Assembly (NCBI GenBank): GCA_003133665.1
Contig: PKYK01000030.1
Location: forward strand, 33,218-97,217
DNA from: Acidimicrobiaceae bacterium
GTDB taxonomy: Bacteria > Actinomycetota > Acidimicrobiia > Acidimicrobiales > RAAP-2
DNA: 64,000 nt
Direction of reading: 5' to 3'
The translations under genes were made by a program, and so were the position numbers. Positions 34,440-62,095 of this stretch are shown in pieces (the first letter of the stretch is position 1; each line of letters starts with the position of its first letter). The notes under the pieces were generated by a model that saw only the letters and a program-made list of their open reading frames with translations, was not told the DNA's origin and searched no databases.

Positions 34440-34802
34440 CTATTGTCCGAGATACTCGGCGTCTCGATGTCGGCCCACTGCTATTTTTAAAGGGTTTTCG
34501 TGGCATGGTCGCGTCCAATCCCCGTCAGATACTCGAGTATCTTGGACGATTCGTCGAATAACTCGGACGATTGCCGGTGCACCGCACTGGCTGCACCGCT
34601 CTGCACACCCTTCTCCTCGCGTGCTCGTTGGTTCCCGGACCCGGGCATGGGGCGGACCCGGCCGTGCAGCCCCGGTGCGTGATGGTGCAACTCTCCCAAG
34701 CCTGAACCCGTCGCGCCGTAAAACACGGCGACTGTCCCTCGTGGCAAATCGGCACCGTACTCCCTGGCTCGGCGATCGTCGCCGCGCCAAGGAGGAACTG
34801 AC

Positions 34803-35159: not shown

Positions 35160-37129
35160 TGGGAAAGCCCCGCACTGGATCAGTGCTCCCGCGTGGCGAC
35201 CTCTGGCGCGCCAGTGTGCCTCGCCTCGACGATCCGAAGAGGCGCCTGGAGACGACCTTCGCGATAGAAGCCGACGGCTGGGCTTGGGTGAGGGACCAGC
35301 TGGAGCGGCTCGCTCGAGGGCTCGCACCCGTCCTGCCCGTGCGTGAGACGGTGGCGATTACCGGCGACGTCGAGGTGACCCAAACGTCCTTCGCCGCCGT
35401 CGGCTGGGCCTGGTACCGCGAGCGCTACGAAGAACTCGAGCGTGCCGGCGCCGATCGAGCCTCCGATATCTATCGCGACGTGAAGTTGCACCTCGTTCCC
35501 GCCTTCGCAGATCTCTTCGAGTGCGACCTGAAGAAGGGGCGCCAGCGGATCGTCGACTGGCTGCGAGCCATGTCGGGTAGGAAGCCCCTCACTCCGGACT
35601 CGCCGTACGTGCCGGACGCAAAAGGCTACGCGCAGTCGACGGTCACCGGGATGCTGTGGATCATGCGCGAGATCATCGCTCACGCTGGCAGCGTGGGGAT
35701 TGACGTACCCGACTTCATAGCGGGCAAGACGATTGTCGCGCTCGAACCCGTGGGCCGCACCGGTCGAAAGGCGGTCCTCGTCACGCTCGGCGAAACCGCT
35801 CGTCTGGCGTCGCATCTGCAGATCATCCATCAGTACGTCCTGTGGACCCTTCGACTCACGGGCATGCGGATCTCCGAGGCCTACGGAGTGATCGTGAAGA
35901 ACTTCTTCGTCGACGAGGACGGCGACGGCTTCATCCTCGCCCGTGACCAAGGCGGCAAGGCCTTCGGTCAGCGCGAGAACGACGGAACGACAACGACGGT
36001 CCACCACAAGGAGGGGGGCAAGACCGACGCGGCCTACCGGCTCATCGCCCTGCCGAGGCCACTGACCGAGATGGTCCAGGTGATCATCGCCACCTACCAC
36101 ACCGACGCCGACGGGCGCATTGACGTCGACGCCCGGCTCGTGCCCACGATTCGTTCTAGCAAAGGCGGACAGGACGGCTTTCGCAGCGCGCTGAAGACTG
36201 CCGCCCAGGAGATTGGTGCCTTCACCGACGACGAGGAACTCGAGATGATGGTGGTGTGCCACGACCTGCGCAAGTCCTACGCCACTGACCTGGCGTGGAA
36301 CGACGAGATCAGTGGACTGCTCGCTCGACGCATCCTGGGACATCGGGCCGGTTCGGACGTCTTCGACCTCGTTTACACGCTCGACACGCGACTGAAGAAG
36401 TACCTGGCGCCGGTGGCGCGGGCGCTAGAGGCCGACCTCGCCGATGCCGCAATCGCCACACTCATGGTGGCGTGCGCGCTCCGTCCCCTCTACGGCACGT
36501 CCCAGGAGCCCGAGGTGATCGGCGCGATCAACAGCCGACTCGAAGCGGCCGGTTGGCAGGTGGAAGCGGACGAGAGCAACATCAACATCGCTCAGGTCGC
36601 CGCACTGCTCGGATTGACCGAGAAGGCGGCGCGCCATCTGATGGGTGACACGATTCCCGGCGTCAAGACCTCGAAGGGTTGGCGGGTCGATATCGACGAC
36701 GTCCTGGCCTATCGCGATCGCTTCGAGGGGAAGTGGCTACTCCGCGAAGTGGCCAGTGACATCGGCGTCTCGTACCAGGAGGTGTACCGCATGCTCGGGT
36801 TCCTCGAGATCACTCCCGCTCGCGATTCGTACGACGATCGCGTGCTGGTCTTGTCCAGTGAGCAGGCGGAGCAGGTCGTCGAGGAGTTCGCGCGAATTGC
36901 GGCGTTGGAGCAGCGCGCCGTCAAACGGGGCCGTGCGGCCGAGATCCTCGGAGTGACGGCCTCTACCGTCGGGCATCTCTTTGACCGGGGCCAAATCGTC
37001 GGGGATCCCCAGACGGACGCGAGCGGGGCGATGTACTTCACTCTCGATTCAATCGGACGCGAGCTTTCGAAGCGTCAGCGCCGAGGCCGGCGTCCACGCC
37101 CGCGGGGCAACTCGAAGGAGTCGGTCTAG
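35159..37129 (+). CDS. Tyrosine integrase with HTH-rich C-terminal extension
   Basis: RLTGMRISEA, CHDLRKSYATDL, RRILGHRAGSDVFDLVYTL; C-terminus with three HTH-like modules; beside tRNA-Val. Confidence 0.88.
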   Translation: MGKPRTGSVLPRGDLWRASVPRLDDPKRRLETTFAIEADGWAWVRDQLERLARGLAPVLPVRETVAITGDVEVTQTSFAAVGWAWYRERYEELERAGADRASDIYRDVKLHLVPAFADLFECDLKKGRQRIVDWLRAMSGRKPLTPDSPYVPDAKGYAQSTVTGMLWIMREIIAHAGSVGIDVPDFIAGKTIVALEPVGRTGRKAVLVTLGETARLASHLQIIHQYVLWTLRLTGMRISEAYGVIVKNFFVDEDGDGFILARDQGGKAFGQRENDGTTTTVHHKEGGKTDAAYRLIALPRPLTEMVQVIIATYHTDADGRIDVDARLVPTIRSSKGGQDGFRSALKTAAQEIGAFTDDEELEMMVVCHDLRKSYATDLAWNDEISGLLARRILGHRAGSDVFDLVYTLDTRLKKYLAPVARALEADLADAAIATLMVACALRPLYGTSQEPEVIGAINSRLEAAGWQVEADESNINIAQVAALLGLTEKAARHLMGDTIPGVKTSKGWRVDIDDVLAYRDRFEGKWLLREVASDIGVSYQEVYRMLGFLEITPARDSYDDRVLVLSSEQAEQVVEEFARIAALEQRAVKRGRAAEILGVTASTVGHLFDRGQIVGDPQTDASGAMYFTLDSIGRELSKRQRRGRRPRPRGNSKESV

Positions 37130-39727: not shown

Positions 39728-41563
39728 TCAACTGGCCGCGGTCTTGCGCCCTGTCGCCCAAGGCGCCGGGAGTTCCACGCCGAGTCTGAGCGCCTCCGCC
39801 CTCAAGCGGGTGTAGTTCTTCTGAGCGGGGCTGAGACCCAGCGCGACCAGGACTCTCATCTGTGATCTCTCCGTCCTGATCACCGAGCGCAGATCGTCAT
39901 CATTGAGTTCGTCCCACTTACCGACTTGCCTGTTGGAGTTTCGTACTTGCACGATGGGGCGCGGCGCAGGGCGCTCTGGTAGCCCTTCGCCGGCGCGGAG
40001 TTGCGCGTTCTCCAGTTCGAGTGCCTCGCACTGCGCGCCGAGAGCGGCGTTTTGCTCGCTCAAGAACAGCAACCGTCCGCCCACGGGTGCCGAGTCGGTC
40101 TGGTCGATGCCCAACTCTGCGGCACGCGTCTGATCGACGAGTCTCGCCGCCTCGGCCAACTGTTCCCGGGCGGGCCGGTTGTAGTGCTTCATCAGCGTGT
40201 CGAGGTCATTCCAGCGGCCCATCTTGAGGACTGTGGTTGCGGGTACACCGGCGTCCAGGTGCTGGACGGCTCCGGTGGAACGGTACGCACGGTGCGTGAT
40301 AGCGAACCCGATATCACCGAGTCCGGCGGCCCGCTGGCTTTTCGAGCACACGGTTTTGGAGTAGTGATCTGGAGTACACAGGGAGTAGGGGATGAGCGGA
40401 GCGTTGTTCGCGTAACCACACTTCGAGTGGGGGTTGTTCCTTCGAACACCGCGCCAAATGCGTTCACCCTTCGTGCACGCGTCGCACTCTGGCGACGGTG
40501 ACATGTGGTTGCGCAGGTGATTGTTGAGCACCTTGACCGTGGCGGCACCGAGGGCAATCGGCTCACTCAGACTCTTTTCAGTCTTGCCCCACGGCACGAA
40601 GCACTTGCCGCTAGCGCTCCAAACTCGTGACAGTTGAAACGTCACGGTGTCGGGGTCATCGCTTGGATCCTCTGGCGGAACCGGGAAGTCCTGTATCCAC
40701 AGCCCCCACATCTCGCTTCGCCGAAGCATGCCGTCGGTCGAGACTGAGGGAACCACCTTCAGTTCCTCGGGATGCGCTCGGGTCAACAGGTCCATCTGGG
40801 AGTGGGCGAGGCTGACGCGCAGATCGTCGTTCGTCTCCGGCTCCTCCCAGTGTCCGTAAGAAATGTTGGCGAAAGGGTTTTCGGTGATGACCTTCGCGCG
40901 TAGCGCCGCGTTGAACGCGGCGTTTATCTTCGAGAAGTAACGCTCGACCGAGTGACGTTGCTTTAATCCCGCGGGGTGGTGAAGCACACATGGCTTCTTG
41001 TTGAAGGTGGGCCGGTCGACCCGCAGGTCGAAGGCGGCAATGTTCTGCGGCGGGCTCAACTGCGACGCCAGTTCGGCGCACGCCTGGCACCGCAGGACGC
41101 GACTGCAGACGTTACTGGCGTCATCTACCGTCACCTGATCCAACGGGATGTTGCCGATGAGATCGAATGCTCCATGGAGGCGGAACATGCTCTCGAACTG
41201 ATTTTCGTTTGTCCTTCCCATGGTCTTGCCGAAGAGGAAGAAGCGGCCGCGGACACCCTTGGCGGGATTACCGATCCAGTCGCGCAACGTCGGTGCCGTA
41301 CTCTTGGGGGCCGAGATTTCGGGCGCGGCCGTGGGGCCCGCCGGCGCCAAGAACGTTCCCGGCGGCGTCGGATCCACTCCCGCATTCCAGCAGAGCAGGA
41401 CGTGGGCTTTGAACAGTTCGAGGTTGGTCTTGCTGATAGGCCAATCGCCCCCGGGCCCCTTACGGGCAATCTCCTTGGCGCCCGGTCGGGGCCGCCACGC
41501 GTAGAGGACGAAGCCGTTTGTGAGCTTGCGCTTGACTCGGGCCGGGACGGGGTTACGACTCAT
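39728..41563 (-). CDS. Second tyrosine recombinase/integrase-like protein
   Basis: ITHRAYRSTGAVQHLDAGVPATTVLKMGRWNDLDTLMKHYNRP; ATG at 41563. Confidence 0.8.
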   Translation of the reverse strand: MSRNPVPARVKRKLTNGFVLYAWRPRPGAKEIARKGPGGDWPISKTNLELFKAHVLLCWNAGVDPTPPGTFLAPAGPTAAPEISAPKSTAPTLRDWIGNPAKGVRGRFFLFGKTMGRTNENQFESMFRLHGAFDLIGNIPLDQVTVDDASNVCSRVLRCQACAELASQLSPPQNIAAFDLRVDRPTFNKKPCVLHHPAGLKQRHSVERYFSKINAAFNAALRAKVITENPFANISYGHWEEPETNDDLRVSLAHSQMDLLTRAHPEELKVVPSVSTDGMLRRSEMWGLWIQDFPVPPEDPSDDPDTVTFQLSRVWSASGKCFVPWGKTEKSLSEPIALGAATVKVLNNHLRNHMSPSPECDACTKGERIWRGVRRNNPHSKCGYANNAPLIPYSLCTPDHYSKTVCSKSQRAAGLGDIGFAITHRAYRSTGAVQHLDAGVPATTVLKMGRWNDLDTLMKHYNRPAREQLAEAARLVDQTRAAELGIDQTDSAPVGGRLLFLSEQNAALGAQCEALELENAQLRAGEGLPERPAPRPIVQVRNSNRQVGKWDELNDDDLRSVIRTERSQMRVLVALGLSPAQKNYTRLRAEALRLGVELPAPWATGRKTAAS

Positions 41564-41909
41564 GTGCGTCACCCCCACCACTTCGCGACAGGCTCTCCAC
41601 CATTGCCGTAAGACGGTCGATGGTCTGCGCCTGGATCTCCACGGTGCGCGCCAAGCTCTCGAGCGAGCGCTCCAGCGCATCGGTCGACCTGACCTCTGGT
41701 GCAACGAGGAGGCCGGCCAGCTTCTTGCGGGCGAGCCCCGAGGCGACAACGTCCTCCCAGGAGATGAGCCAGCGTCCGTCGGCTCGTCCATCCTCGCGTT
41801 TGGCGTCGGGGAACCGGCCGGCGTCGAGGTAGCGCCGGGCCGTCACCTTGGAGGTGCCCGTCCGTTTCGCCACTTCGACCAGCGTCAGGTAGTCGCTCAC
41901 GTTGGTCAT
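41553..41909 (-). CDS. Excisionase/MerR-like HTH protein, overlaps second integrase
   Basis: YLTLVEVAKRTGTSKVTARRYLDAGRFPDAKRE. Confidence 0.78.
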   Translation of the reverse strand: MTNVSDYLTLVEVAKRTGTSKVTARRYLDAGRFPDAKREDGRADGRWLISWEDVVASGLARKKLAGLLVAPEVRSTDALERSLESLARTVEIQAQTIDRLTAMVESLSRSGGGDAHES

Positions 41910-45477: not shown

Positions 45478-46113
45478 CTACCAGGCAAGTAGTGGCGCGA
45501 CAGGTCCAGGCGCGAAGCCGGCGCGGATCACTTCAACGGTCGGCTTCGGTGTCAGGACTTCGACTTCGCCTTCGGGTCGCGACTCTTTGACGCCATACCC
45601 GTGGCTCGTCCACGGGTAGACACACCAGTGTTCCTGCCGCTTCGGGTATTCGTATCGGAAAAGGAGCAGCGGATCAGATCGGCCGATCTCGCGAATCATT
45701 ACGCCTGCGGGGAGTTCAGCTGCGTCGGCGCGAAAGGTGATCTGCTTCTTTTCCTGAACGCGGTGCGCATTCAACTCGACGTCGATCTGGGGTGCCGTAG
45801 CTTCGTCAACGTCGTAGACCTTGTTCCAAGCCTTGACGAACTGATTGAATCGCACCTTGTTGCATTGGCCACACGGACGGTGCCCCGCGGCAAGGGCCGT
45901 GGCCTCGTCAAGGAAGAACAGGTCAGTGAATTTCCCCGGGGTCATGAACTCTCTTGGGTCGCTCAACGCCGAGGTGACGCAGTAGAGCCAGTCATTGCCA
46001 TCGGCGTATCGGACAATGCGATTACCGTCATGCAAGGTCCCACGGTTCCCGACCAAGGTGAACGGTGCGGTCTCGCGCCTGATGGCCGAGGTCGGGTCGA
46101 CGATGTTCAACAA
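45478..46113 (-). CDS. Hypothetical protein with HRPCxxC motif and YPW..GYGV C-terminal module (start uncertain)
   Basis: FLDEATALAAGHRPCGQCNKVRFNQFVKAW; C-terminus shared with 60103 ORF. Confidence 0.65.
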   Translation of the reverse strand: MLNIVDPTSAIRRETAPFTLVGNRGTLHDGNRIVRYADGNDWLYCVTSALSDPREFMTPGKFTDLFFLDEATALAAGHRPCGQCNKVRFNQFVKAWNKVYDVDEATAPQIDVELNAHRVQEKKQITFRADAAELPAGVMIREIGRSDPLLLFRYEYPKRQEHWCVYPWTSHGYGVKESRPEGEVEVLTPKPTVEVIRAGFAPGPVAPLLAW

Positions 46114-46130
46114 CGTGGCTCCTTTGGTCG

Positions 46131-46337
46131 CTATGCGCTTGGGGCGCAGTGGCCACACGGCGTGGCTTGATACTTCGACGAGCTCGCCGCTTCGCCGAAT
46201 CGCTCGAACGGCCCGAGCCACTGTCCCGCATGGCTGTGATCCGTCGCGTGGGTCCCCACGCCATCGTTGCAGTGCGAGCAGTTCGCATGGTGAACCCGTG
46301 CGTAACGATGCACCCAATTTTCATACGTCCAAAACAT
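46131..46337 (-). CDS. Small Cys/His-rich protein, 68 aa
   Basis: MFWTYENWVHRYARVHHANCSHCNDGVGTH...WLGPFERFGEA, HxxxCxxC. Confidence 0.6.
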   Translation of the reverse strand: MFWTYENWVHRYARVHHANCSHCNDGVGTHATDHSHAGQWLGPFERFGEAASSSKYQATPCGHCAPSA

Positions 46338-46571: not shown

Positions 46572-48638
46572 ATGGAGTTAGAACTCATAGGAATCACACT
46601 CCAGGGGCCGCCCCCGATCGGGAGGGTGCATCTTCGATTCGAATCTGGGCTGTCGGTCCTTTATGGACTGAACGGTGCTGGTAAGTCCTCGGTTCTCAAT
46701 GCCATGCGAGCGGCGCTCACTGGTATTCGGGGCGAGAGTCTTTCAGCATTACACGTTCGGTATTCGGATCCAATGAGCCCTATCGATCTTGGCGAGGATG
46801 ATTCATCGCCGAGTGCGCTACTAGCAAGGAGTCTTGAACAGTGGTTGAGATTGAATCGAGCGGATTTCTCACCGTCAAAGGTGACGGCCGAATCTGGAAT
46901 CTCGGCACTGGTCTCGGAGATTCTCATCGAGGCAGAGAATCTTGAGTACGAGAAGTCGACTCCTGGGATTGTTCACGAAGTATCGCGACAAGGTGTGTTC
47001 ACATTGCTCCCGACTGGCGTCACCGTGCCGGAGTGGTCGCTGTTTATCTCAGGCGTCATAGATGAGACAACGCCGGTCCTTCGAGAGTGCGTGGAATTGG
47101 AGAGGCGCCGTGCCGATTGGAAGACTGAGAATCTCGAAAAGAAGGCCGCAGGGGTGTTTGAGGATCAAAGTGCGCTGCAAGAAGCACTCGATTCGGCCCC
47201 ACCGTGGCACAGTGCATTCCCAATGCTCTCATCCTGGGTTGACGCAGACGGGTACCCATGGAGACCGGGCGATCCACCGTGGGTGCCCTGCGCGATCGAG
47301 CCATGTGACGTGTTCCGTCCTGGCCGACGCTTCATTGAAGACCTCAATGCGATGTCGGACTCCCAACTCATTGAACGAACCGCGAACCTGGTTGGAGGAC
47401 CGGTCATCATCGTTAATGAGCATGGGAATATTGGAATAGCCGAAAGTGCCGAGCGATTCTTGACACGACTCTCGTTAGAGGCGACGGAGATCATTTCGCT
47501 ATTGCTTGCGGACGCCCCAGTCCTGAAGTGCGAGTTTCGTGATCCAGAAGATTGGGTTCGCCACCGTCCTCTCCAATGGATGGCGTTTGACCGACCATCG
47601 CTTCGTTGGGTACTTATGGATCAACTGAGCGACTCGCAGCGACGTTGGGCGATCTTTGCGATCTCTCTCGCGCTACTCGGCCCCTCCTATGGCGACGAAG
47701 CCGACTGGGATGCGGGGCACGCGGGTGACGGCCGCGTACTTCTTCTCGATGAACCCGAACGCGGCCTACATGCAAGAGCCCAACGACAACTCGCACAAGG
47801 ACTCGCGAAGTTGAGTTCAAGTTCATCATGGACGATCATCGCTGCGACGCACTCTTCAGCATTCTTGGATAATCCAGGCGCCGACCTTTTTCATGTTTCG
47901 CGAGACGGCGGTGAAACGCAGGTTGTTGGAATGACAACCTCCATCAGAAAGGTGATGGAAGACAGCCAGTTAGGGATTGAGCCATCCGAGATGCTTCAAA
48001 TGGTCCGAGCGTTCTTAGTGGTTGAAGGCGTTCACGATCAAGTGGTAATCGAAGGACTGTTGGGTGACGAGTTAGACGATGCAAGGGTGCGAGTGGTCCC
48101 AATGGGCGGAACCCATGCACTCAACTCGGTGGTCGACGCTCAGTTGATGTTCGACTACACGAGCGCGGTCGTGGTAATTGCACTCGACCGACTCCGGCTC
48201 CAACGAGTCGAGTTGAATTGGAACGAGACTAGAGATCTCGTGCGTCAAGGGCAAGTTCGCGGCGCCTACAAGTCGCTCAAAACATTCAAGGAGAGAAGCC
48301 AATCGTCCGAGGAGGAGTTTCTCTACGAATTCTTGGAGTTGGCGATTAGGAAAGGCAAAACTGATCGAGTCGAGGTGTTCGGTTTTGCCAAGCCCGACAT
48401 CCTCCAGTACCTCGATGCCCAAGAGTTCGTCGAGGGCGAGGAATCGTGGGACGCTCTTGTTCGAGATTGGAATCATCGCGGAAACTTCAAGGAGTATCTA
48501 ATATCACGCGGCGCAAGAATCAACTCAAAGTCCATCGCCGGAATGGTTGAACGGATGAACCGGATACCCGTTGAGTTCATCGAACTGTTGCATGTATGCA
48601 GAGGTGCCGCCTCGGGCCCTTATTCTTCGCACGTGTAG
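46572..48638 (+). CDS. AAA ATPase with OLD-like organization
   Basis: Walker A GLNGAGKSS, LLLDEPERGLH, ATHSSAFLD; C-terminal TOPRIM-like AFLVVEGVHDQVVIEGLLG. Confidence 0.82.
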   Translation: MELELIGITLQGPPPIGRVHLRFESGLSVLYGLNGAGKSSVLNAMRAALTGIRGESLSALHVRYSDPMSPIDLGEDDSSPSALLARSLEQWLRLNRADFSPSKVTAESGISALVSEILIEAENLEYEKSTPGIVHEVSRQGVFTLLPTGVTVPEWSLFISGVIDETTPVLRECVELERRRADWKTENLEKKAAGVFEDQSALQEALDSAPPWHSAFPMLSSWVDADGYPWRPGDPPWVPCAIEPCDVFRPGRRFIEDLNAMSDSQLIERTANLVGGPVIIVNEHGNIGIAESAERFLTRLSLEATEIISLLLADAPVLKCEFRDPEDWVRHRPLQWMAFDRPSLRWVLMDQLSDSQRRWAIFAISLALLGPSYGDEADWDAGHAGDGRVLLLDEPERGLHARAQRQLAQGLAKLSSSSSWTIIAATHSSAFLDNPGADLFHVSRDGGETQVVGMTTSIRKVMEDSQLGIEPSEMLQMVRAFLVVEGVHDQVVIEGLLGDELDDARVRVVPMGGTHALNSVVDAQLMFDYTSAVVVIALDRLRLQRVELNWNETRDLVRQGQVRGAYKSLKTFKERSQSSEEEFLYEFLELAIRKGKTDRVEVFGFAKPDILQYLDAQEFVEGEESWDALVRDWNHRGNFKEYLISRGARINSKSIAGMVERMNRIPVEFIELLHVCRGAASGPYSSHV

Positions 48639-48764: not shown

Positions 48765-50147
48765 TCAAGCTGATTCGATCCTCAGGTCTAGTTCTTGAAC
48801 GTCGGCAATGCTAATTTCTTGCAGCCAAGGATCTGGGCTATCCCCCCGCTCGAGTACCCCCAGCAGGTCCGGGTTGATTCGAGCAATATGTTCGCGATCC
48901 CGTTCAATGTGCTTTCGGAGGACCAACCAAACTGCCCCGATTGAAACGCCGTTTCCAAGTTGACGGAATGACAGTGCATCGGTTTGCCCAGACATCTCAA
49001 ACCAGTCGGGCAGTCCTTGCAGTCGTTTCGCTTCCGCCACACTCAGTTTTCGTTGTCTTGATCCGATAATGCTCTTCTGGGTTATTGCAACGAGCGCAGG
49101 CAGGTAAGTAGCCCTTTTTGCACGTATTCCCGACGGTCGAAAGTGCATTACGCACTCTTTCAGCGTCTTCGCGCCTTGGGCCTGCCATTCGAGTTTTTGC
49201 CTGGAGTTTGGAAACTGCCACACTTGGTGCCTCTTTCTCCACGGAGTAATGAACTCACGGTATTCGAGAAAGAAGGCTCTGTTCTTGTCGATGAAGTCCA
49301 GTTTCCAACTAGGGACGTTTTCTCGGTCCACGTATGGTTCCCTTACGGTCCAGTACTGAGCCCAGAGTGGAAACCCGGGGAGCGCCCGCCCGCCCCTTAT
49401 TTCCCTCATGCCAACTACAAACTCATTCCATGCATCAATCCATACCAACTCGTTTGCGCTTAGAGAAGAATTGGGTACATGCGTACGGCGCGGGTGGAGG
49501 AGGTGCCGATCGAGGTCCCACTGCTGCGGGTCCCACCCGGCTCTAGACGCAATCATCCGTAAATCCTTCATCGTCACCGCAGGCCTGATACTCGTCGACG
49601 ACTGAGCCACTTCCGGTCCAACGTAGGTTCCCGTGATGAACACTCGTTCTCGATTCTGGGGCCGGCCGCCATGGCTCGGCGGCAATGCGTGAGGAGAAAC
49701 GATGGAAGGCTCGGTCGAGACGAGATAGCCGAGTTCGCGTAGGGTTTGCACGATAACTCGCATCTCATTGACGTGCCGGGGACCAGCAAGATTTCGAACA
49801 TTCTCGAGTATGACGATCGTTGGCCTCTTAGCCTTCAGAACATTCGCGATGTTGTAGAACAACGTTCCTCGCGCTTCGTCCATCCCCTTCTGAGCACCAG
49901 ATTTTGAGAACGGCTGGCACGGAAATCCAGCAGTCAAAACATCGTGATCGGGAACGTCAACCCGTAGGTCGTTGGCAATCCGAGTTATGTCACCCAGGGG
50001 GTCAATGCCCCAGTTCCTTTCGTATACCCGAGCCGCGGCCGGGTCGATTTCGATGGCCATCACGCAGCGGCCCCCCGAAGCGCTCAAGGCTCCGTGGAAT
50101 CCTCCGATCCCGGCGAAGAGGTCTACGAATCTGAAGGGCTGTTCCAC
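48765..50147 (-). CDS. DNA (cytosine-5-)-methyltransferase
   Basis: FVDLFAGIGGFHGAL, TAGFPCQPFSKSG, VILENVRNL, RQLGNGVSIGAVWLV. Confidence 0.96.
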   Translation of the reverse strand: MEQPFRFVDLFAGIGGFHGALSASGGRCVMAIEIDPAAARVYERNWGIDPLGDITRIANDLRVDVPDHDVLTAGFPCQPFSKSGAQKGMDEARGTLFYNIANVLKAKRPTIVILENVRNLAGPRHVNEMRVIVQTLRELGYLVSTEPSIVSPHALPPSHGGRPQNRERVFITGTYVGPEVAQSSTSIRPAVTMKDLRMIASRAGWDPQQWDLDRHLLHPRRTHVPNSSLSANELVWIDAWNEFVVGMREIRGGRALPGFPLWAQYWTVREPYVDRENVPSWKLDFIDKNRAFFLEYREFITPWRKRHQVWQFPNSRQKLEWQAQGAKTLKECVMHFRPSGIRAKRATYLPALVAITQKSIIGSRQRKLSVAEAKRLQGLPDWFEMSGQTDALSFRQLGNGVSIGAVWLVLRKHIERDREHIARINPDLLGVLERGDSPDPWLQEISIADVQELDLRIESA

Positions 50148-50246: not shown

Positions 50247-51503
50247 ATGAGCGACAAGAAGAGCATTGAGAATCTGGCGAGCCTTCTTGTCTCGTATCTC
50301 ATCGCGAATCCAGGGAGTTCGGCGAAGAAGGCCGCTAAGTCCCTTGATGCAGAAAAGAAACAAGTCAACGCGATCCTGTATGGCAGGAAGTCCGTGTTCA
50401 CACCAGGGGAGGGCTCGCCACCGCTGTGGTCTGTTGCGACAGTGAAACGCACTACCGATTCGGAGTTCCGCGCCACGTCGTCCAAGACTGATCTCAAGGA
50501 GGCGGTGGTTCGTCAAAGCGAGAGGCCGTTGAATGCTGCATTGGGAGGTCAATCAGACGATCAAATGACACTCAACGGCGAGGACTCACCTGAGGGGGAG
50601 GCCGCGCTCGCGAAGGCGGAAGAGTTCCAGAGCGCTGGCCGCTTTCAGGAGGCGTTGGAGCAGTACCGACTTGCTTCAAGGCTGTTCCTAAACCGCGGTG
50701 GGAGTACGGCGGAAGAAGATGGCGACCAAGGGCCGGTGAGAATCGACGGTCAACCCAAGATTCCATGGGCCGTTGCCAATGGCTCTGGCGAGGGTGAGCG
50801 GAGAGCAGAACAATACCTTGGGCCAAATCAAGGTGCACCAACAAGGCGGACGCCCTCTCTTCAAAAGGAGATCGAGGGGTTCGTATCGCAGTTTCCCGGA
50901 ATCTCCTACGGCGAGTTGGCACTATTGATTGGAAGATCCGAAGACGAAGTTCGAAACGCAGCCAAGAAGGTCAGGTACTTGATCATCGATGACCTAGAGG
51001 GTGACGACGCTGACGAGCCGTCCGTCAATGAACGAAATCGGGAGTTGCTGGACGTAATTAGAAATGCTGGAACCATGGAGTTTCCCCTCTCGACTGATGG
51101 CTACGACGAACTGCTGAGGAGAGGCTTCATCAAGGGTGTGACCTCGGTACGGATCGGTCAAATATTTGGTAGTTGGCGCCGAGCCTGTGAAATCGCCGGA
51201 GTGGAGGCGCCAAAGGCGTTGCGCTCGAGTTACGAGTCGAAATGGACAGACCAGGAGTTGGCCGAGGCGGTCGCTCGGTTTCTCGCGGTCAGCGAATACC
51301 GGGGCGCACATCACCGATACGACGAGTGGAGAAGGGATACTGGGAGCGACGACGACACACCATCTTCGGGGACCTTGCGGAATAGGCTCGGGCCGAGTTG
51401 GAAGGCGGTGAGGCGGCGGGGGCTTGATATCCTGCGTGAACGTTGGCTAACCGCCGAGGAACGTTGGCTTGTCGATGGAGAAGCGGAAAGAGGCCTTGGG
51501 TGA
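50247..51503 (+). CDS. N-terminal wHTH protein with TPR-like and homing-endonuclease-associated repeat-like segments
   Basis: LVSYLIANPGSSAKKAAKSLDAEKKQVNAILYG; WTDQELAEAVARFLAV..DEWRRDTG..SSGTLRNRLGPSWKAVRRRG. Confidence 0.72.
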   Translation: MSDKKSIENLASLLVSYLIANPGSSAKKAAKSLDAEKKQVNAILYGRKSVFTPGEGSPPLWSVATVKRTTDSEFRATSSKTDLKEAVVRQSERPLNAALGGQSDDQMTLNGEDSPEGEAALAKAEEFQSAGRFQEALEQYRLASRLFLNRGGSTAEEDGDQGPVRIDGQPKIPWAVANGSGEGERRAEQYLGPNQGAPTRRTPSLQKEIEGFVSQFPGISYGELALLIGRSEDEVRNAAKKVRYLIIDDLEGDDADEPSVNERNRELLDVIRNAGTMEFPLSTDGYDELLRRGFIKGVTSVRIGQIFGSWRRACEIAGVEAPKALRSSYESKWTDQELAEAVARFLAVSEYRGAHHRYDEWRRDTGSDDDTPSSGTLRNRLGPSWKAVRRRGLDILRERWLTAEERWLVDGEAERGLG

Positions 51504-53587
51504 CTAGTCAAGTCGAGCAGGACCTTCTCAACGGTCAACTCGAAGCGGAAATCGGCACTGAAAGTTCGGCCAAGTTGTGGGGAATGGTCTCGGTGACGCT
51601 GAACAAGATAGATGCGATCGGACCCGATGATCATCCCACCGGTCTCGTCCTCGGCTACGTGCAGTCGGGCAAGACGACCGCGATGATGGCCCTCATGGCA
51701 GCGGCAGTCGACCGGGGCTACACGGTAATAGTCGCGTTCCTCGGTTCGACGAACCTCCTCCTACAGCAGAACTCCGATCGAATCACTAAGAAGCTGGGAA
51801 TCGATACGCGGAGTGACTATCGCTGGGTGGAACTTAGCAACCCAAAGGGGCTCGCAGCGGCGACTGAGATTTCTGGATGGCTCAAGAAGGGTCGAGTGAT
51901 ATTCATACCGGTCTTGAAGCACGCCGGTCGAATCACCGACGTTGCGGAGACGTTGAGTCGTGTATCTGAGATCGCATCGACGAGGGTTCTGGTGATCGAC
52001 GACGAAGCGGACCAAGCCTCACTGAATACGTTGGTCCGATCCGGATCGGAGAGTCGGGTCTATGGTGCCATCGACCAGTTGAGAACCAAACTGCCGAATC
52101 ACGCGTTGATCCAATTCACGGCGACTCCGTTCGCGCCCCTTCTACTCGAGTCCGACGACCCGCTGTTTCCCAGATTCGTCGAATTCCTCGAGCCCGGGTC
52201 TGGTTACACGGGAGGCCGCGAATTCTTCATAGAGAAGTCCGATATGGTCGTTCGCTATATTTCGGCGGCTGACGAGCAGGCGCCGAAGAAGCTTCCAATC
52301 GAACTTCCCGGCAGCCTCGAGCGCGCGCTATGGAATTTCGTGATTGGCTCAGCAGTGCTGAGCACGACCATCAAGGACTCAACCCCGGTAAGCATGTTGA
52401 TCCACCCAAGTCCGCGGAAGGACGTTCAAGAGAGATACAACTTCCTCTTGATTCGAAAACTCGCCCACATGGCGAGGGACGCGTCGCTGGCGACCTCGGC
52501 AGATGACCTGCCCGAGGTCGCGAAGAGCGAATTGAGCCGTTTGGAAGCTTCAGGAATTCCCCAGTTGGCCAGTGGCGACCTGATCGCCCAGATCCGATAC
52601 GTTTTGAGCGAGCTGAAGATATGGCTGCTGAATTCGGCCACTGCGGCGAAGAAAGTCGACTGGAACGTCTCGCCCTTCCACATTCTCGTCGGCGGAAACA
52701 AGTTGGATCGCGGGTTTACAGTCGAAGGCTTGACAGTCACTTACATGAATCGGCCGTCCAGCGACCAGATCGACACAATCGAGCAGAGGGCACGAGCCTT
52801 TGGGTATCGATCCGAGTTCCTCCCCTTCTGTCAGTTCTTCGCATCTGCGAGGACGGTCAAGATGCTGCGGGATATCGTCCTCACCGAGTACGACCTGCGC
52901 GCTCGACTGCTCGACGCAGTCGCGGCAGGACGGTCGTTGGATCAATGGGCTCGGGAGATCGGGTTTCTCATCCCGGTGGGGTCGAAGCCAACCCGCGACA
53001 TCGTCGTCAGGGAACTCGCCGAGTCGCAATCAGGCTGGTACCAACATCGTCGCCCCTCGTTCGAAACGGAGACCATCGAGAAGAATTGGAGGCTGAGCGA
53101 AGGGTTGGGACTATTCGACGCCCCACTCAAGGACTTTGGCCGTCTCGCCTTCAGGGAGTTGACGATTCCAACCGATGATGCGGCAGCGTTCCTTCGCCAG
53201 TGGGGGTTCCTCTCAGGTGCAAACTCATGGCCCGCTGCTGACATCGTCCATCATTTCGAGAGGCAAGCGCAGTTCCAGGAGGAGGTCTCGGTGATCTTGA
53301 TGGAACAGGATGCTGGCACCGCGGACGCCCATCCACGAATTCGACAGTGGCGAGATGACATTGGCTTTGTCAACCTATTCCAAGGGCGTGACACGAAGAG
53401 CGAACTCGGCAAGCCGTTCTATCCCGGTGACGCATATCTGACCGAGATAGCGGAAGACGCATCAAGGCTCCTCATCCAAGTCCACCGAGTAGTTCGCCGT
53501 GACGAAAATGATGATCCAAGGTTGTTGACTCCGGCAATCTTCTTAGGCGACCGCCAACTAGCAAGAAGGAAGTCAAATGAGCACTGA
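51500..53587 (+). CDS. Z1-domain SF2-like ATPase/helicase
   Basis: GYVQSGKTTAMMAL, VLVIDDEADQAS, IQFTATPFAPLL, GGNKLDRGFTVEGLTVTYMNR, QRARAFGYR; GTGA overlap with upstream gene. Confidence 0.88.
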   Translation: MTSQVEQDLLNGQLEAEIGTESSAKLWGMVSVTLNKIDAIGPDDHPTGLVLGYVQSGKTTAMMALMAAAVDRGYTVIVAFLGSTNLLLQQNSDRITKKLGIDTRSDYRWVELSNPKGLAAATEISGWLKKGRVIFIPVLKHAGRITDVAETLSRVSEIASTRVLVIDDEADQASLNTLVRSGSESRVYGAIDQLRTKLPNHALIQFTATPFAPLLLESDDPLFPRFVEFLEPGSGYTGGREFFIEKSDMVVRYISAADEQAPKKLPIELPGSLERALWNFVIGSAVLSTTIKDSTPVSMLIHPSPRKDVQERYNFLLIRKLAHMARDASLATSADDLPEVAKSELSRLEASGIPQLASGDLIAQIRYVLSELKIWLLNSATAAKKVDWNVSPFHILVGGNKLDRGFTVEGLTVTYMNRPSSDQIDTIEQRARAFGYRSEFLPFCQFFASARTVKMLRDIVLTEYDLRARLLDAVAAGRSLDQWAREIGFLIPVGSKPTRDIVVRELAESQSGWYQHRRPSFETETIEKNWRLSEGLGLFDAPLKDFGRLAFRELTIPTDDAAAFLRQWGFLSGANSWPAADIVHHFERQAQFQEEVSVILMEQDAGTADAHPRIRQWRDDIGFVNLFQGRDTKSELGKPFYPGDAYLTEIAEDASRLLIQVHRVVRRDENDDPRLLTPAIFLGDRQLARRKSNEH

Positions 53588-54662
53588 GAACGCAATTCAG
53601 GGACTAGGCGAGGCCAGATCGATTGCTCTCGCCAACCTTCTGCTGGACGATATGAACCCCCGCTTGCCACCGAGCCAGCAAGGGCTATCCCAAATCGATC
53701 TTGCGGTAGTCCTGGAGATGGGCTTCGACGCGTTTACCGTGGCGGAATCGATAGCCCGTTTCGGCTTCTTCTCGAGCGAGCCGTTGATAGCGATCCCAGC
53801 GAAGGAGGAAGGAAAATTCATCGTGGTCGAGGGCAATCGTCGTCTGACGGCATTGCTCGGGCTCACCCATGAAGACATGCGTTCAGAGTTCGCTACTCCC
53901 GAGCGGTGGGAGGAACTCGCCGTCGAATCCGAGATCACGAGTGAGACGAGAGTCCCAGTCGTGATCGCAACGTCCAGGGAGGCCTGCACCCCGGTCATCG
54001 GGTACCGCCACATCTCGGGGATTCTCCAATGGTCGCCGTTTGCCCAGGCTCGCTATGTTGCGGTGCTCGTAGACAACGAGCACAGGTCGTATCAAGAGGT
54101 AGCCCAACTGATTGGGAAGGACAAGTCAGCGGTTGCCGCTCTCTACAGAGACCAGGCGATCGCCGACCAGGCGATCCGCATGGGAATCGACACTGGGGGG
54201 TTGGAGAGCGCCTTCTCGCTGCTGCAGGTGGCGATGTCGAGCACCAAGATCAGAGATTTCGTCGGTGCTCCGCTCGGTGCGCGGACCGTTCCCGGAACGG
54301 ACCCGATACCGCGGGAGAAGGTGGATGAACTCGGGGAGGTGCTCGGATACGTCTTTGGCAGTGGGGACCGAGAACCGGTCATCAATGATTCACGTCAGAT
54401 CTCACAACTAGGAAACATCATTGCCGAGCCAGCAGGACTGAAGGCCCTTCGTGACGGAGAGACGTTAGAAGTCGCCAAGCAGAAGATCACCGACACGGGA
54501 GTTGACCCAAGAGAGCGATTGAAGAGGCGACTGACAACCGCCAAGAATGCCTTGCTCTTTGCAGTCGAGGACATTGGCCCGTTCTACGACGACGAGGAGA
54601 TCTTGGAACTCGTCGCAGAAGTCTCGTCCGCTGTTCGCGAACTTGAGCAACAGGAGTCTTGA
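53577..54662 (+). CDS. ParB/sulfiredoxin-like domain protein
   Basis: FIVVEGNRRLTALLGL, HRSYQEVAQLIGKDKSAVAALYRDQ; overlaps Z1 gene. Confidence 0.75.
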   Translation: MSTENAIQGLGEARSIALANLLLDDMNPRLPPSQQGLSQIDLAVVLEMGFDAFTVAESIARFGFFSSEPLIAIPAKEEGKFIVVEGNRRLTALLGLTHEDMRSEFATPERWEELAVESEITSETRVPVVIATSREACTPVIGYRHISGILQWSPFAQARYVAVLVDNEHRSYQEVAQLIGKDKSAVAALYRDQAIADQAIRMGIDTGGLESAFSLLQVAMSSTKIRDFVGAPLGARTVPGTDPIPREKVDELGEVLGYVFGSGDREPVINDSRQISQLGNIIAEPAGLKALRDGETLEVAKQKITDTGVDPRERLKRRLTTAKNALLFAVEDIGPFYDDEEILELVAEVSSAVRELEQQES

Positions 54663-54668
54663 CTCGCA

Positions 54669-55532
54669 ATGGCAACCTCCGACGAGTTGGCCGACACTGT
54701 CGAAATGGCACTGCTTTCCATTGAGGAGCGAGCGGCGGGGACCGGTCGAATCGAAGGCCTGCTCGAGAGGGTGACGAGCGGAGAGCGGCCGCGGCTCGAT
54801 TTGGCAATCCGAACAATGCGACGACGCCAAACACTCCTTGGTGACGCGTACCCATTCGACGTGCAGGACGTTGCCATCAGACGTGATGACGCCTGGCCTG
54901 CGCTGGCGTACTCGTGGCTGCTCGCGATGTCGCCATCGGGCCTCTCTCGCGAACTGATGAACCTCGACGACATTTCGGTCGCTGCAGTGAAATTCGAAAG
55001 AGTCGTCGTCGAGGCAGTGCAAAGGTACTTGGGTGATGGTGCGAAGGCAGTGCGCTTTGCATGGCCATCTGACAGTGGGCGGCCCCAAGAGTTCCCTGAG
55101 GCCATCAACTGGCTCGCTGGGCTGATGGGCGTGAGATTGGGCGGGGGATACCGTCAACCACGGAGGAAGGACGGTGGGGTCGATGTAATTGGCTGGCGAC
55201 CTTTTCGCGATGGCAAGTCAGCATTTCCGATCGTGTTAGTCCAATGCACCATCCAAGCCGATTTGGTGTCGAAGTCTCTAGACGTCGATATACGAAACTG
55301 GTCATCCTGGTTGGAATTGGTGCACGATCCGGGCACGATTCTGACTGCGCCGCAAGTGGTCCCAGGAAACACCGAAATCTGGAACGAACTCGCGTTGAAG
55401 AATTTGGTGTTCGATCGCCTTCGTCTCGTAGAACTCTTGGGCCGTTATTCTTCATCAGTCCTTCAAGATGAAATGTCGGCATGGCTGCTAGCAATCGTTC
55501 ACAAGGTTCGCGCTCGAATCGAGTCGACGTGA
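54669..55532 (+). CDS. Putative restriction endonuclease, PD-(D/E)XK-like
   Basis: RKDGGVDVIGWRPFRDGKSAFPIVLVQCT; operon position. Confidence 0.6.
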   Translation: MATSDELADTVEMALLSIEERAAGTGRIEGLLERVTSGERPRLDLAIRTMRRRQTLLGDAYPFDVQDVAIRRDDAWPALAYSWLLAMSPSGLSRELMNLDDISVAAVKFERVVVEAVQRYLGDGAKAVRFAWPSDSGRPQEFPEAINWLAGLMGVRLGGGYRQPRRKDGGVDVIGWRPFRDGKSAFPIVLVQCTIQADLVSKSLDVDIRNWSSWLELVHDPGTILTAPQVVPGNTEIWNELALKNLVFDRLRLVELLGRYSSSVLQDEMSAWLLAIVHKVRARIEST

Positions 55533-56026: not shown

Positions 56027-57949
56027 ATGAGTACCATTCACAGAGTGCTGGCCTACTTAGCCTCAAAGTCCGATTTCCTGGAGCAGGCTCCAGACATTGA
56101 AGACCGGATCAGAGATGCGGTGAAGCGCGGCCTCGGCTTGACGGTACCAATCGGATCTCCCGAGTATCAGTCGTGGCATAACTCACTCGGAAACGCCATG
56201 TTCCATGTGATCAACAGTGAAGAGATCCCTGATGACGCCGGAGTTGCGGTTGAGTATCGAATCAATGGCCGTCGTCAGCGGATTGATTTCATCATTGCCG
56301 GCAGAAACCATCTTGGTGAAAAGAACGTTGTCATTGTCGAATTGAAGCAGTGGACAAGAGTTGAACATTCTGATCTCCGTGATCACGTGAGAACCGCCGT
56401 CGGCGGAGGAATCCGTGATCAAACGCATCCTTCGTATCAAGCCTGGTCATACGCGAGACAGATGATGGACTTCTATGAGGTGGTTCAAACTGAAGGCATT
56501 GGCGTGCGACCCTGCGCCTACATTCATAACTGCGATGACCGGTCGGTTCTACAGGCAAATGACCAGTATGAGAATGTTGCGAAGGCTCCGCTCTTCTTGA
56601 AGGGAGAGCACCTCAAACTTCGCCAACACATCGTCGACCACATTGCCGAAGGTCCTGGCGTCGCCATGTTGAAGCAGATTGACGAAAGCCGCATGAGACC
56701 AGGTAAGCAACTCGTTGAAGCGCTGAGTTCAATGATGAAGGGCAACGACGAGTTTGCCTTGGTCGATGACCAGAAGTCAGTCCTAGAGAGCATCCTCGAT
56801 ATTGAGAGGAAGACCCTGCACGGAGATAAGTCGACGATCATCGTGAGGGGAGGACCTGGGACCGGGAAGTCTCTCATTGCGGTGAATGGACTCGTTCGCC
56901 TCTCGAAGGAGGACAAGAACGTCCGCTACGTATCGAAGAATGCAGCCCCTCGACGTGTCTACGAAGCAAAGCTCAAAGGCTCGATGAGGACCGCCGAGAT
57001 CACCGAACTGTTCGTCAGTTCGGATGCGTTTCGCGACGTCTCAGACGTTGCTTACGACGTTTTGCTGGTTGACGAGGCGCATCGATTGACGGAAAAGGGC
57101 GGCCTCTACGGGAACCTCGGCGAGAACCAGATCGCGGAAGTCATCAACTGCGCGAGGGTCGCCGTCTTCTTCATTGATGAGGATCAGAAGGTCACGTGGC
57201 GTGACATCGGAGACGTCGCTGAGATTGAGCGCTGGGCTCAAGCGTCCGGATCCGCGATTCACCACATGGACCTCTTTGCACAGTTCCGCTGCGCTGGCTC
57301 GGACGAGTACCTTCGCTGGCTGGACTACTTGCTTGGGATCAGCGAGCAACCGTCGGTCGGACTGCGGTACACGAACTATGACTTCCAGGTTGCCGATACT
57401 CCCTCGAGACTTCGTGATCTCATCTTCGACAAGAACATGGGCAATAATCGCTCCCGCCTTGTTGCAGGCTATTGCTGGAATTGGGTCAGCAAGAAGGATC
57501 CACGAGCAAAGGACATCATCTTCGAGGGCACCGACTTCGCAATGAAATGGAATCTGGCGTCAGACGGAAGTACGTGGATGATTGCTCCCAAGTCGGTGAA
57601 CGAGGTTGGGTGCATTCACACCTGCCAAGGACTGGAATGTGACTACATTGGGGTAATCATCGGGGCAGACTTGATTTGCAGAAACGGGGCACTGGTCACG
57701 GATCCCTTTGCGCGAGCACGTACCGATCAGTCTTTGAAGGGTTTCAAGACCGCTTTCAAGGAAGACCCTGACCGCGCCCTTGCCCGAGCCGACATACTGA
57801 TTCGAAATACGTACCGTACCCTCATGTCCCGTGGCATGAACGGCTGCTACGTCTACTCAACCGATCCGGAAACGCAGCGATATTTTCAGAACCTATTGAG
57901 TTCTGGAGAAGACGATGCAAACGTGAATTCGAAGGGGAGAGAGCCATGA
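56027..57949 (+). CDS. DUF2075-like helicase with N-terminal PD-(D/E)XK/NERD-like nuclease domain
   Basis: RRQRIDFIIAG..NVVIVELKQW; IIVRGGPGTGKSLIAV; VLLVDEAHRLTEKG; GLECDYIGVIIG. Confidence 0.82.
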   Translation: MSTIHRVLAYLASKSDFLEQAPDIEDRIRDAVKRGLGLTVPIGSPEYQSWHNSLGNAMFHVINSEEIPDDAGVAVEYRINGRRQRIDFIIAGRNHLGEKNVVIVELKQWTRVEHSDLRDHVRTAVGGGIRDQTHPSYQAWSYARQMMDFYEVVQTEGIGVRPCAYIHNCDDRSVLQANDQYENVAKAPLFLKGEHLKLRQHIVDHIAEGPGVAMLKQIDESRMRPGKQLVEALSSMMKGNDEFALVDDQKSVLESILDIERKTLHGDKSTIIVRGGPGTGKSLIAVNGLVRLSKEDKNVRYVSKNAAPRRVYEAKLKGSMRTAEITELFVSSDAFRDVSDVAYDVLLVDEAHRLTEKGGLYGNLGENQIAEVINCARVAVFFIDEDQKVTWRDIGDVAEIERWAQASGSAIHHMDLFAQFRCAGSDEYLRWLDYLLGISEQPSVGLRYTNYDFQVADTPSRLRDLIFDKNMGNNRSRLVAGYCWNWVSKKDPRAKDIIFEGTDFAMKWNLASDGSTWMIAPKSVNEVGCIHTCQGLECDYIGVIIGADLICRNGALVTDPFARARTDQSLKGFKTAFKEDPDRALARADILIRNTYRTLMSRGMNGCYVYSTDPETQRYFQNLLSSGEDDANVNSKGREP

Positions 57950-58278
57950 GCATCCTGGATGAACTTCGCAGTGAAACCCGAGAGTTCGCGGCGGTAAGAA
58001 ACTGGTTTCAGTACCACACGCCGAAGAATCTGGCGATGGCCATCGCTGGCGAGGCTGGAGAGTTAGTTGCAGAGTTTCAGTGGCTGACGCCTGAAGAATC
58101 TGATCCTGGGTTGATGACAGTGGAACAACGATCTGCGATTAAGAGTGAGATGGCTGACGTCTTCATTTACTTGATGAGACTCAGTGATGTACTTGATGTG
58201 GACTTGGCCGTGGTGGCAAGAGAGAAGTTGAAGATTAACGAGACTCGTTTCCCCGAACCTGGAACCGAACCCAACTAG
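57946..58278 (+). CDS. MazG-like nucleotide pyrophosphohydrolase
   Basis: AGEAGELVAEFQW..SEMADVFIYLMRLSD (ExxE..ExxD); ATGA overlap with helicase gene. Confidence 0.9.
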   Translation: MSILDELRSETREFAAVRNWFQYHTPKNLAMAIAGEAGELVAEFQWLTPEESDPGLMTVEQRSAIKSEMADVFIYLMRLSDVLDVDLAVVAREKLKINETRFPEPGTEPN

Positions 58279-58455: not shown

Positions 58456-59439
58456 ATGGAAGAAAGCGTGAGCCCGATGGGGCGACTGGTATTCGGCTCC
58501 CTACGTGAAGCTTGGAAAGGCGAGGCAGCTGACTTCACTCCGCTTCTCGCTCAACAAGTCGACGATATTGGAAATGCAATTGGAGTTGAACTTGCTTCGA
58601 TTGGAAGCGTCGAAGTTTCGGCTGCGGGTGGTCGACGCATTGACATTCTCGCAGATGGTGCCAACGGAGCCAATTTTGTAATTGAGAATCAATACGGAGT
58701 ACTTAATCATGATCATCTGACGCGGGGATTGGCCTACGCCGTGGCATCGCATTCACGCGGTTTGATTGTGATCGCCGAGGAACATCGTGACGAATTTAGA
58801 GCTGTTGCGCACTATCTCAACGAGCTTCGTGACAATGATCCCGAACGGGGTGTTGCGGTCTGGCTCGTCGAAGCGAAGGCCGTCCGTATCGGAAAGAGTC
58901 CTTGGGCTCCACTGTTTCAACCCGTCGTCTCGCCCAATTCATTTACCGCTGCAGTGGAACTTGCGCAGTCATCCAGTCGCAGACGGCTCGCGCGAGGAGA
59001 TTTTGAGGCGGAGTTCAAATCGGGAGATGACCTGATGATTGCGCGAGAGATTCTTGACTGGTGGAACGGGCCGGACCGCCGTTATCGCATTATGGCGAGC
59101 CCAGTACAGGCAGTTCTCGAGTCGCGTGGTCCAGGCATCAGTGGCTGGCGCACCGTGATCGGTTTCTACCCGAGTGGGCAAGTGGCTGTTCCGTTCGGTG
59201 CGTATAGTGGGCTCAATACGGGTATTGGAGTAGATGCCCTCGGCACAGACGAGTTTCGCACCAAAGCCAATGCGCTCTTCGGCTTTAACGGGACCGAAGT
59301 ACAGGCTAGAACTCCTCCAGGGTGGCTCACGATTGAGCGGTCCTATGGCTTGAAGGCATTTTGTTCTGAGGTCGCAGACGCATACCTCGAAGCGAAGACT
59401 GAACTTAGGGTTGACTCTCAGCAAGATGCTTCGACTTGA
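58456..59439 (+). CDS. PD-(D/E)XK-like protein (ENQ variant)
   Basis: GRRIDILADGANGANFVIENQYGVLNHDHLTRGLAYA. Confidence 0.7.
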   Translation: MEESVSPMGRLVFGSLREAWKGEAADFTPLLAQQVDDIGNAIGVELASIGSVEVSAAGGRRIDILADGANGANFVIENQYGVLNHDHLTRGLAYAVASHSRGLIVIAEEHRDEFRAVAHYLNELRDNDPERGVAVWLVEAKAVRIGKSPWAPLFQPVVSPNSFTAAVELAQSSSRRRLARGDFEAEFKSGDDLMIAREILDWWNGPDRRYRIMASPVQAVLESRGPGISGWRTVIGFYPSGQVAVPFGAYSGLNTGIGVDALGTDEFRTKANALFGFNGTEVQARTPPGWLTIERSYGLKAFCSEVADAYLEAKTELRVDSQQDAST

Positions 59440-60102: not shown

Positions 60103-60546
60103 TCACCACGCTAGGAGTGGTTCATTCGGGCCAACGGTGAAACCCCCGGTCATGACTGAGACTGTATGGCGTGGGGTGAGTACTTCGACCGTGCCCTTTG
60201 GCCGTACCCTCCGAACCCCATATCCCTGTGGGGTCCAGGGGTAGGAAAAATCGTTCCTGATTAATAGTGATCCCGACGAATGTGGATCTCGAATCATGGC
60301 TGCCCCCAAGGTAGACCGTTGCCGTGTTCGCCGTGACCTCGCCACGATAACGCCCGAAAGGTTGGCGCATTGCTGGTTTGCGCCGTTCAGGTTGGCGCCA
60401 GAGAGGTTTGCGCCAGAGAGGTTTGCATTAGCTGGCACTGGGAATCCCAAATTGGGTGTTACATCGTGGGCGTAGGATTTGCCAATGGCACTTCCATCTG
60501 CATACTTGACCAGTACGAAGAATACGCCCGCGATATTCCAGGGCAT
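60103..60546 (-). pseudogene. Decayed pentapeptide-repeat ORF joined to a C-terminal module like that of the 45478 gene
   Basis: ANLSGANLSGANLNGANQQCANLSG then frameshift-like break, YPWTPQGYGVRRVRPKGTVEVLTPRHTVSVMTGGFTVGPNEPLLAW. Confidence 0.55.
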
Positions 60547-60547
60547 C

Positions 60548-61090
60548 CAAATGGCTCAGGCCCCTCAGCGATTTACGCAACGTTTCCTGGAAGGACTCGG
60601 ATTTCCAAGCGCTAATGACAGGGCAATGATTAATGTCCTAAAGGCGCTTCGATTCTTGGACGACACGGGAGTTCCTCTTAAGCGCTATCACGAGTACCTG
60701 GATCAAACCCAGTCTGCGGGTATCATCGCAGAGGCAGTGAGGGACGCTTACGCCGATTTGTTCAGAGTCAATACTCGCGCCTACGAAATGTCGATCCAAG
60801 AAATTAAGAACAAGATGAAGACACTGTCAGAAGGGCAGTTCTCTGATCGAGTTCTCTTGGCGATGGCAACGACCTTTGCGGCGTTGGCCAAACTTGGTGA
60901 TTTCACTGAGAGCGCCAAGGCTGCAGTGTCGGCCTTAGAAAGCCAAGAGCAAGAATCTGCGATTTCAAGTACTCCGCAGCCGCTGAAGATTCGCGGACTT
61001 GTATACAACATCAATCTTCATCTACCCGAGTCCAGAGATCCCGCCGTGTACGACGCGCTCTTCAGAAGCCTTAGAGAGCACCTCACCTGA
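60548..61090 (+). CDS. DUF5343-like protein
   Basis: FLEGLGFPSANDRAMINVLKALRFLDDTGVPLKRYHEYL..AGIIAEAVRDAYADLF; TGATG overlap with next gene. Confidence 0.75.
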   Translation, partial: QMAQAPQRFTQRFLEGLGFPSANDRAMINVLKALRFLDDTGVPLKRYHEYLDQTQSAGIIAEAVRDAYADLFRVNTRAYEMSIQEIKNKMKTLSEGQFSDRVLLAMATTFAALAKLGDFTESAKAAVSALESQEQESAISSTPQPLKIRGLVYNINLHLPESRDPAVYDALFRSLREHLT

Positions 61091-61671
61091 TGAATCAGGC
61101 TGGGCAACTCTACGAGTTTGTCTATCGCGGCCAATTGGCAGATGCGGCGCTAGACATCGCGGGACGACCATCGAGGTACTCATCCGACGTTGACCTCGAA
61201 GAAGTCACCGAGACCTTATCGGTCGATCTGTTCGATCCCGAATTAATGGAACCTGCTCGCCGCATGGCAATCGTGTATCAAGTAATCGCGGCTTTCGAAA
61301 ACGGAGTAAGAGAATTCGTACTGAAGGTCCTTGTGGAAGCGCACGGCGACGAGTGGTGGGAAAGAGGCGTCTCAGAGAAGATTCGTAAGTTCGCTGACAG
61401 CCGACGAAATGACGAAGAGAAGAATCGTTGGCACGGGACTCGCAGCGACGGGCTATTGGGTTACACCGAACTTGGTCACCTTGTCGACATAATGCGAAAC
61501 AACTGGGAGTGCTTCGAACCTTATGTGACAAGGATTGACTGGGCTGCGTCCATATTCGCTGGCATTGAAAGATCCAGAAACGTGATCATGCATAGCGGAG
61601 TTCTGGCAATTGAAGACGTAGAGAGATTAGGAATCTACGTCCGAGACTGGATAAAGCAAGTCGGACTCTAG
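61090..61671 (+). CDS. Swt1-type HEPN domain protein
   Basis: VYQVIAAFENGVREFVLKVL; SRNVIMHSG matching HEPN RNxxxH. Confidence 0.78.
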   Translation: MNQAGQLYEFVYRGQLADAALDIAGRPSRYSSDVDLEEVTETLSVDLFDPELMEPARRMAIVYQVIAAFENGVREFVLKVLVEAHGDEWWERGVSEKIRKFADSRRNDEEKNRWHGTRSDGLLGYTELGHLVDIMRNNWECFEPYVTRIDWAASIFAGIERSRNVIMHSGVLAIEDVERLGIYVRDWIKQVGL

Positions 61672-62095
61672 TTTCTCCAACTGCTGAGTCTCCAGTCGTA
61701 GATTGTGTGAGTCCCCGAGTTCAAGGGGTGCTCGCTGATGCGAACCCGCACCCAGCGCTGCGCCTCATCGGATCCTGAGTTTTGCAGAGGGACGTCATCC
61801 ACTCCCGCGCCTGGGGCGTCCGGCTATCTGCCAGAAATTGCACCGAGGCGCGGTCCTGCCGACGCGTCGCACCGGGCGAGTAGATTTCCGGCGTGAACGA
61901 ATGCCGGCGCCCAACTCGTTGGAAGGAACCTCGCGCGATGAACGAATGCGCCAATTTTGGATTTGCGACATCGGCGGGAAGCGTCGACCTGTGCAGTCGG
62001 GTGTGCACTCGGGGTGTGCAGAGTTTGCGACCAGGGTTTTTACGGAGAAGAAGGTCCATTGGATGCGGATACCAAGTTGGTACGGCCCACCATCA

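Follow-up and report, generated by a model that had tools for sequence, protein, structure and literature searches.

A DUF5343–Swt1-type HEPN gene pair in an Acidimicrobiaceae defence island, and DUF5343 relatives that adjoin other effectors

The gene pair and its surroundings

The window analysed here is a stretch of 64,000 nucleotides (64 kb) from an Acidimicrobiaceae bacterium, in which two small adjoining genes on the forward strand form the subject of this work (Table 1). Gene A encodes a DUF5343 protein and gene B a Swt1-like HEPN protein, which is a putative RNase effector. Both names had been given in the initial annotation and proved correct: gene A matches Pfam DUF5343 (PF17278) at 8.5e-35 and the PADLOC profile PDC-M34A at 3.4e-65, both on a truncated frame, and gene B matches Pfam HEPN_Swt1 (PF18731) at 1.8e-09 (38.3 bits, above the curated cut-off of 27.5) and PDC-M34B at 5.2e-74 over residues 1-192.

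Table 1. Features of the 64-kb window, with positions counted from its first nucleotide
Feature	Position	Strand	Basis or remark
tRNA-Val	34366-34440		island apparently starts near here
Integrase-like gene	35159-37129		weak Pfam match
Integrase-like gene	39728-41791		by eye
OLD-like ATPase	46572-48638		island gene
Cytosine methyltransferase-like ORF	48765-50147	-	by eye
Z1 helicase	51443-53587		island gene
ParB-like protein	53577-54662		island gene; resembles PD-Lambda-5_A
287-aa protein, flanked by the ParB-like and SLFN helicase genes	54669-55532		no Pfam or PADLOC match
SLFN-group-3 (Schlafen) helicase	56027-57949		island gene
MazG-like protein	57946-58278		island gene
Gene matching PADLOC candidate PDC-S11	58456-59439		1.3e-35 over first ~180 residues
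Two-gene cassette common to window and L002	60299..61713	+	blastn, ~90% DNA identity
Gene A, DUF5343 protein, 201 aa	60485..61090	+	Pfam, PDC-M34A profile, AF2 model
Conserved C-terminal tail of gene A, 32 residues (169-200), IRGLVYNINLHLPESRDPAVYDALFRSLREHLT	60989..61087	+	identity, reciprocal profiles
TGATG stop/start overlap of genes A and B	61088..61092	+	sequence; geometry in relatives
Gene B, Swt1-like HEPN, putative RNase effector, 193 aa	61090..61671	+	Pfam, PDC-M34B
HEPN motif SRNVIMH, residues 162-168 (R163, H168)	61573..61593	+	alignment of 10 proteins

The start of gene A had been placed at 60548 and is here moved to 60485, as reading from 60548/60551 truncates the gene. An in-frame ATG lies at 60485, the PDC-M34A profile alignment reaches its first position there (1-207), and relatives of gene A share an N-terminal M(A/S)LP.AYLTS in sequence comparison; we therefore take gene A to be 201 aa long. 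The TGATG overlap described earlier is present, with the TGA stop of gene A at 61088-61090 and its last base serving as the first base of the gene B ATG (61090). A minus-strand frame (60103-60546) overlaps the start of gene A. By eye, it contains pentapeptide-like ANLSG repeats, and its C-terminus (..GYGV..RP.G.VEVLTP..) is like that of the minus-strand frame 45478-46317, which suggests a partial duplicate.

The gene A protein is laid out as a helical core (residues 1-143), a disordered linker (~144-168) and the conserved tail. In the AF2 model the core is confident, with most 10-residue blocks >90, and the helix at 186-200 is weakly modelled. Since this fold has no significant match in PDB or BFVD, we infer the role of gene A from its context.

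The HEPN motif (RNxxxH) had also been pointed out in gene B, and its R/H pair is indeed invariant in relatives. R163 and H168 are kept in 10/10 aligned gene B proteins with identities ranging from 25 to 97%, the residue after the motif R being N, G or H; further invariant positions are E70, R74, W89, W90 and RDW 185-187. Gene B thereby carries the conserved R-x4-6-H motif of the Swt1-like HEPN family. Its AF2 model is all-helical with a moderate pLDDT of 71 and gave no PDB match at E<=0.001, so that the HEPN fold is assigned from sequence; a PDB sequence search found nothing. Pfam gave no match in the 193 aa to the PIN nuclease domain, which is N-terminal in eukaryotic Swt1 proper. Bacterial HEPNs of the Swt1 family that are active have been predicted to act as RNases in defence (PMC3710099), and both the R/H conservation and what is known of active HEPN domains (PMC3710099) support an RNase role for gene B. 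The motif has been lost from some HEPN families, whose function is taken to be binding only (PMC3710099), and gene B could accordingly be imagined as an RNA-binding or nucleotide-accepting HEPN, e.g. a target or regulator, rather than an RNase; we hold this to be highly improbable, since R163 and H168 occur in every one of the ten aligned proteins and most other positions vary.

The island around the pair seems to start near the tRNA-Val and integrase-like genes, and to its right the contig end coincides with the window end. The neighbours of relatives include methyltransferases (G147, G728), Mrr-type nucleases (G927, G996), HEPN-RES (G927), NOV_C/EVE (G226), an integrase (G964) and a serine recombinase (G619). 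The association with defence suggested in the initial annotation is supported by the island context, the PADLOC candidate assignment and these defence and mobility neighbours.

Linkage, selection and the shared cassette

Gene A is located immediately upstream of a Swt1-type HEPN gene in 10 genomes, i.e. the window's own, G416, G619, G842, G927, G166, G727 and G888, together with two genomes that hold broken copies, G601 (in-frame TAG in A) and G996 (contig 26, frameshifts). The linkage, whose absence the initial annotation had counted among the observations against its reading, thus recurs across divergent genomes. The spacing of the intact Swt1-HEPN pairs ranges from an 8-nt overlap to a 17-nt gap, and DUF5343 is present in roughly 1.5-3% of genomes in several draws of Actinomycetota. 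The broken copies, at L040 and L045 (in-frame TAG in A; frameshifts in both genes), may reflect either decay or assembly error.

The closest comparison comes from L002, a 16.6-kb locus from a same-genus genome, whose gene products are 95% and 97% identical to those of the window pair. The dN/dS values against it are 0.087 for gene A and 0.061 for gene B, and both genes are under purifying selection. With curated family matches, recurrence in divergent genomes and dN/dS of 0.06-0.09, the pair does not consist of chance ORFs. One counter-example to the linkage is a gene B relative on a cyanobacterial plasmid that has no DUF5343 gene directly upstream, so gene B may not always need gene A; apart from this one distant HEPN, no relatives of the pair were found on phages, plasmids or viral contigs. 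Weak matches in genus g52 (E 4e-5 to 7e-4, in larger proteins) were set aside as probably another HEPN group.

Between the window (64 kb) and L002 (16.6 kb), blastn found no match other than the shared block of ~1.4 kb, which holds the two genes; the flanks differ, and SIR2-HerA lies near the pair in L002. Because the similarity is confined to 60299-61713 and the flanks are unrelated, the simplest reading is that A and B travel as a block with no third gene needed, and they are probably a complete mobile unit. No repeats of at least 14 bp were found around the cassette, and promoter-like sites near it do not exceed chance expectation. When 52-64 kb were scanned against Rfam (cmscan, E<=5), no abiF motif appeared; the sole match, a CRISPR repeat model below the gathering score, was rejected as an RNA associated with the pair.

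The comparison with L002 also bears on the idea that gene A binds to foreign nucleic acid as its target and directs or tethers the HEPN so that phage transcripts are cut without cell killing. In line with this idea, restriction-modification genes are found alongside Swt1-family HEPNs (PMC3710099), and a methyltransferase-like ORF and a Z1 helicase are present in the island. However, the L002 pair has neither of the two, and Pfam and the fold search recognised no nucleic-acid-binding fold in gene A. We regard such guiding as improbable.

Other effectors and the conserved tail of DUF5343 proteins

DUF5343 genes also precede genes other than Swt1-type HEPNs. First, the DUF5343 genes of G147 and G226 overlap a different gene by 17 and 26 nt, respectively, with start codons of our choice. 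The products of these two genes are 49% identical to each other and have no meaningful similarity to gene B; from their RNECAH motif they are read as putative HEPN proteins, with weak Pfam matches (DUF4145 at 3.1e-4 in G226, below the cut-off). Second, G728 has a Ymh-type protein (PF09509, 1.5e-32) as the neighbour, with PD-Lambda-3_B and the Aga_HEPN associated with argonaute among its relatives. Third, the neighbour in G964 is a SEFIR/TIR protein (PF08357, 2.9e-06). On contig 130 of G996 the neighbouring protein is unclassified and has no Pfam match. Next to the DUF5343 genes of G239, G875 and G886 we recognised no effector in the stretches that were read, two of which are short. With these relatives, the gene A family reaches effectors that the M34B profiles do not cover, in a small sample of four to five non-Swt1 DUF5343 loci from one phylum. 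At L049, an unclassified protein without a Pfam match is encoded downstream of a DUF5343 gene (312-1286, minus strand); its EHHDRFF recalls phospholipase-D-like nucleases, and it is possibly a further effector.

These partners bear on whether the pair is an ordinary type II toxin-antitoxin system that stabilises a mobile island, with DUF5343 as plain antitoxin, the HEPN as toxin and no dedicated phage sensing. Genes A and B are small, co-oriented and overlapping, as is typical of type II systems, and the antitoxin would come first; the adjoining tRNA-Val and integrase-like genes give a mobile context, and the pair is shared as a compact two-gene block. A transducer fits better, however, with relatives of gene A that pair with several unrelated effectors including SEFIR/TIR, and Pfam recognised in gene A no DNA-binding domain for the usual autoregulation. 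The plain toxin-antitoxin reading keeps some weight since antitoxins can be promiscuous (PMC10440598), and we consider it rather unlikely. Because relatives of gene A sit with unrelated effectors, we lean towards gene A as a sensor or adaptor that transduces a signal, rather than an antitoxin.

The tail is better conserved than the core of these proteins. Mean pairwise identity is 52.9% in the tail, 38.6% in the core and 19.8% in the linker, the length of which is variable, and this conservation of the tail is opposite to the expectation for a disordered end. Among 5206 frames, a profile built from the tails of Swt1-HEPN partners matches both tails of the RNECAH partners (5e-06 to 8e-06), and a profile from non-Swt1 partner tails matches the Swt1 partners (5e-08 to 3e-03), these E-values describing their own frame set, which was drawn from loci selected by their DUF5343 or tail matches. 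The tails of the Ymh and SEFIR partners are borderline (0.006-0.007) when omitted from the model. In three solo DUF5343 proteins, which have no recognised effector neighbour, the tail was not detected by the tail profiles. Our guess is that the tail docks effectors.

We also considered the tail as a generic module of other defence proteins, for instance DUF499 ATPases, which may have a similar tail. This was not supported, as the significant matches in 159 genomes were solely DUF5343 proteins; of two weaker matches that we read, one resembles a sigma factor and the other a spurious frame.

We tentatively propose that DUF5343 may be a general immune signalling hub, in which a sensor core and a linker-borne docking tail would serve interchangeable effectors, namely Swt1-type and Ymh-type HEPNs, a second HEPN family with RNxxxH, SEFIR/TIR proteins and perhaps more. 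In this scheme, the window pair would represent the Swt1-HEPN version.

Proposed mode of action and comparison with known systems

We think it fairly probable that the pair is an infection-triggered RNase defence module, in which gene B cuts RNA and gene A holds gene B and then releases or activates it. For this module we infer binding, inhibition, a trigger, RNase activity and an abortive outcome as follows. Gene A would be made by coupled translation just before gene B, and would bind the gene B protein and keep it inactive. Gene B would be the RNA-cutting effector, with R163 and H168 in its active site. The core of gene A (1-143) is the likely sensing part, and contact to the effector is probably made by the flexible linker with the conserved tail (169-200). 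On phage infection, gene A would perceive either the phage or what it does to the cell, and would release or activate gene B, which may then cleave cellular RNA and lead to growth stop or cell death before phage release.

If true, this would give an unpublished database candidate a testable mechanism, with RNA-cutting residues, a restraining part and a docking part. Moreover, the DUF5343 family would become a marker in the search for further effectors, as any gene behind a DUF5343 gene with a tail could be suspected of encoding one.

Several known systems resemble the pair. MNT-HEPN (MntA-HepT) is a toxin-antitoxin system with a nucleotidyltransferase partner; it likewise consists of two small adjacent genes with the HEPN as presumed toxin, whereas the partner here is DUF5343, and Pfam gave no nucleotidyltransferase match in the neighbouring genes scanned. 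AbiF/AbiD (Abi_2), a toxin with an RNA antitoxin, belongs to a related HEPN group and is a single HEPN effector (PMC12373285, PMC12165695); AbiF, a structural relative, is toxic on expression and kept in check by an RNA (PMC12373285). In contrast, gene B is presumed to be restrained by a protein partner, and 52-64 kb of the window holds no recognised abiF RNA motif. Gene B shares the HEPN_Swt1 match and the conserved R-x4-H with the Swt1-like HEPN family, which includes the HEPN-DUF499 protein Ava_2192 (PMC3710099), but it is stand-alone, with a separate DUF5343 partner and no fused PIN or DUF499 ATPase.

As judged from sequence profiles, the window pair is a member of the existing PADLOC candidate system PDC-M34: its A and B profiles match the two genes along almost their whole length, and the pair itself presents no difference. 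The PADLOC PDC systems are described as unpublished candidates of Payne et al. 2021 (PMC11811056), and in the open-access papers searched we found no papers naming DUF5343, PDC-M34 or HEPN_Swt1 and no experiments on DUF5343 or PDC-M34. As far as the tools used here show, the partner exchange and the conserved tail of DUF5343 have not been described previously. The window pair is an ordinary member of PDC-M34, and the interchangeable effectors are the interesting part.
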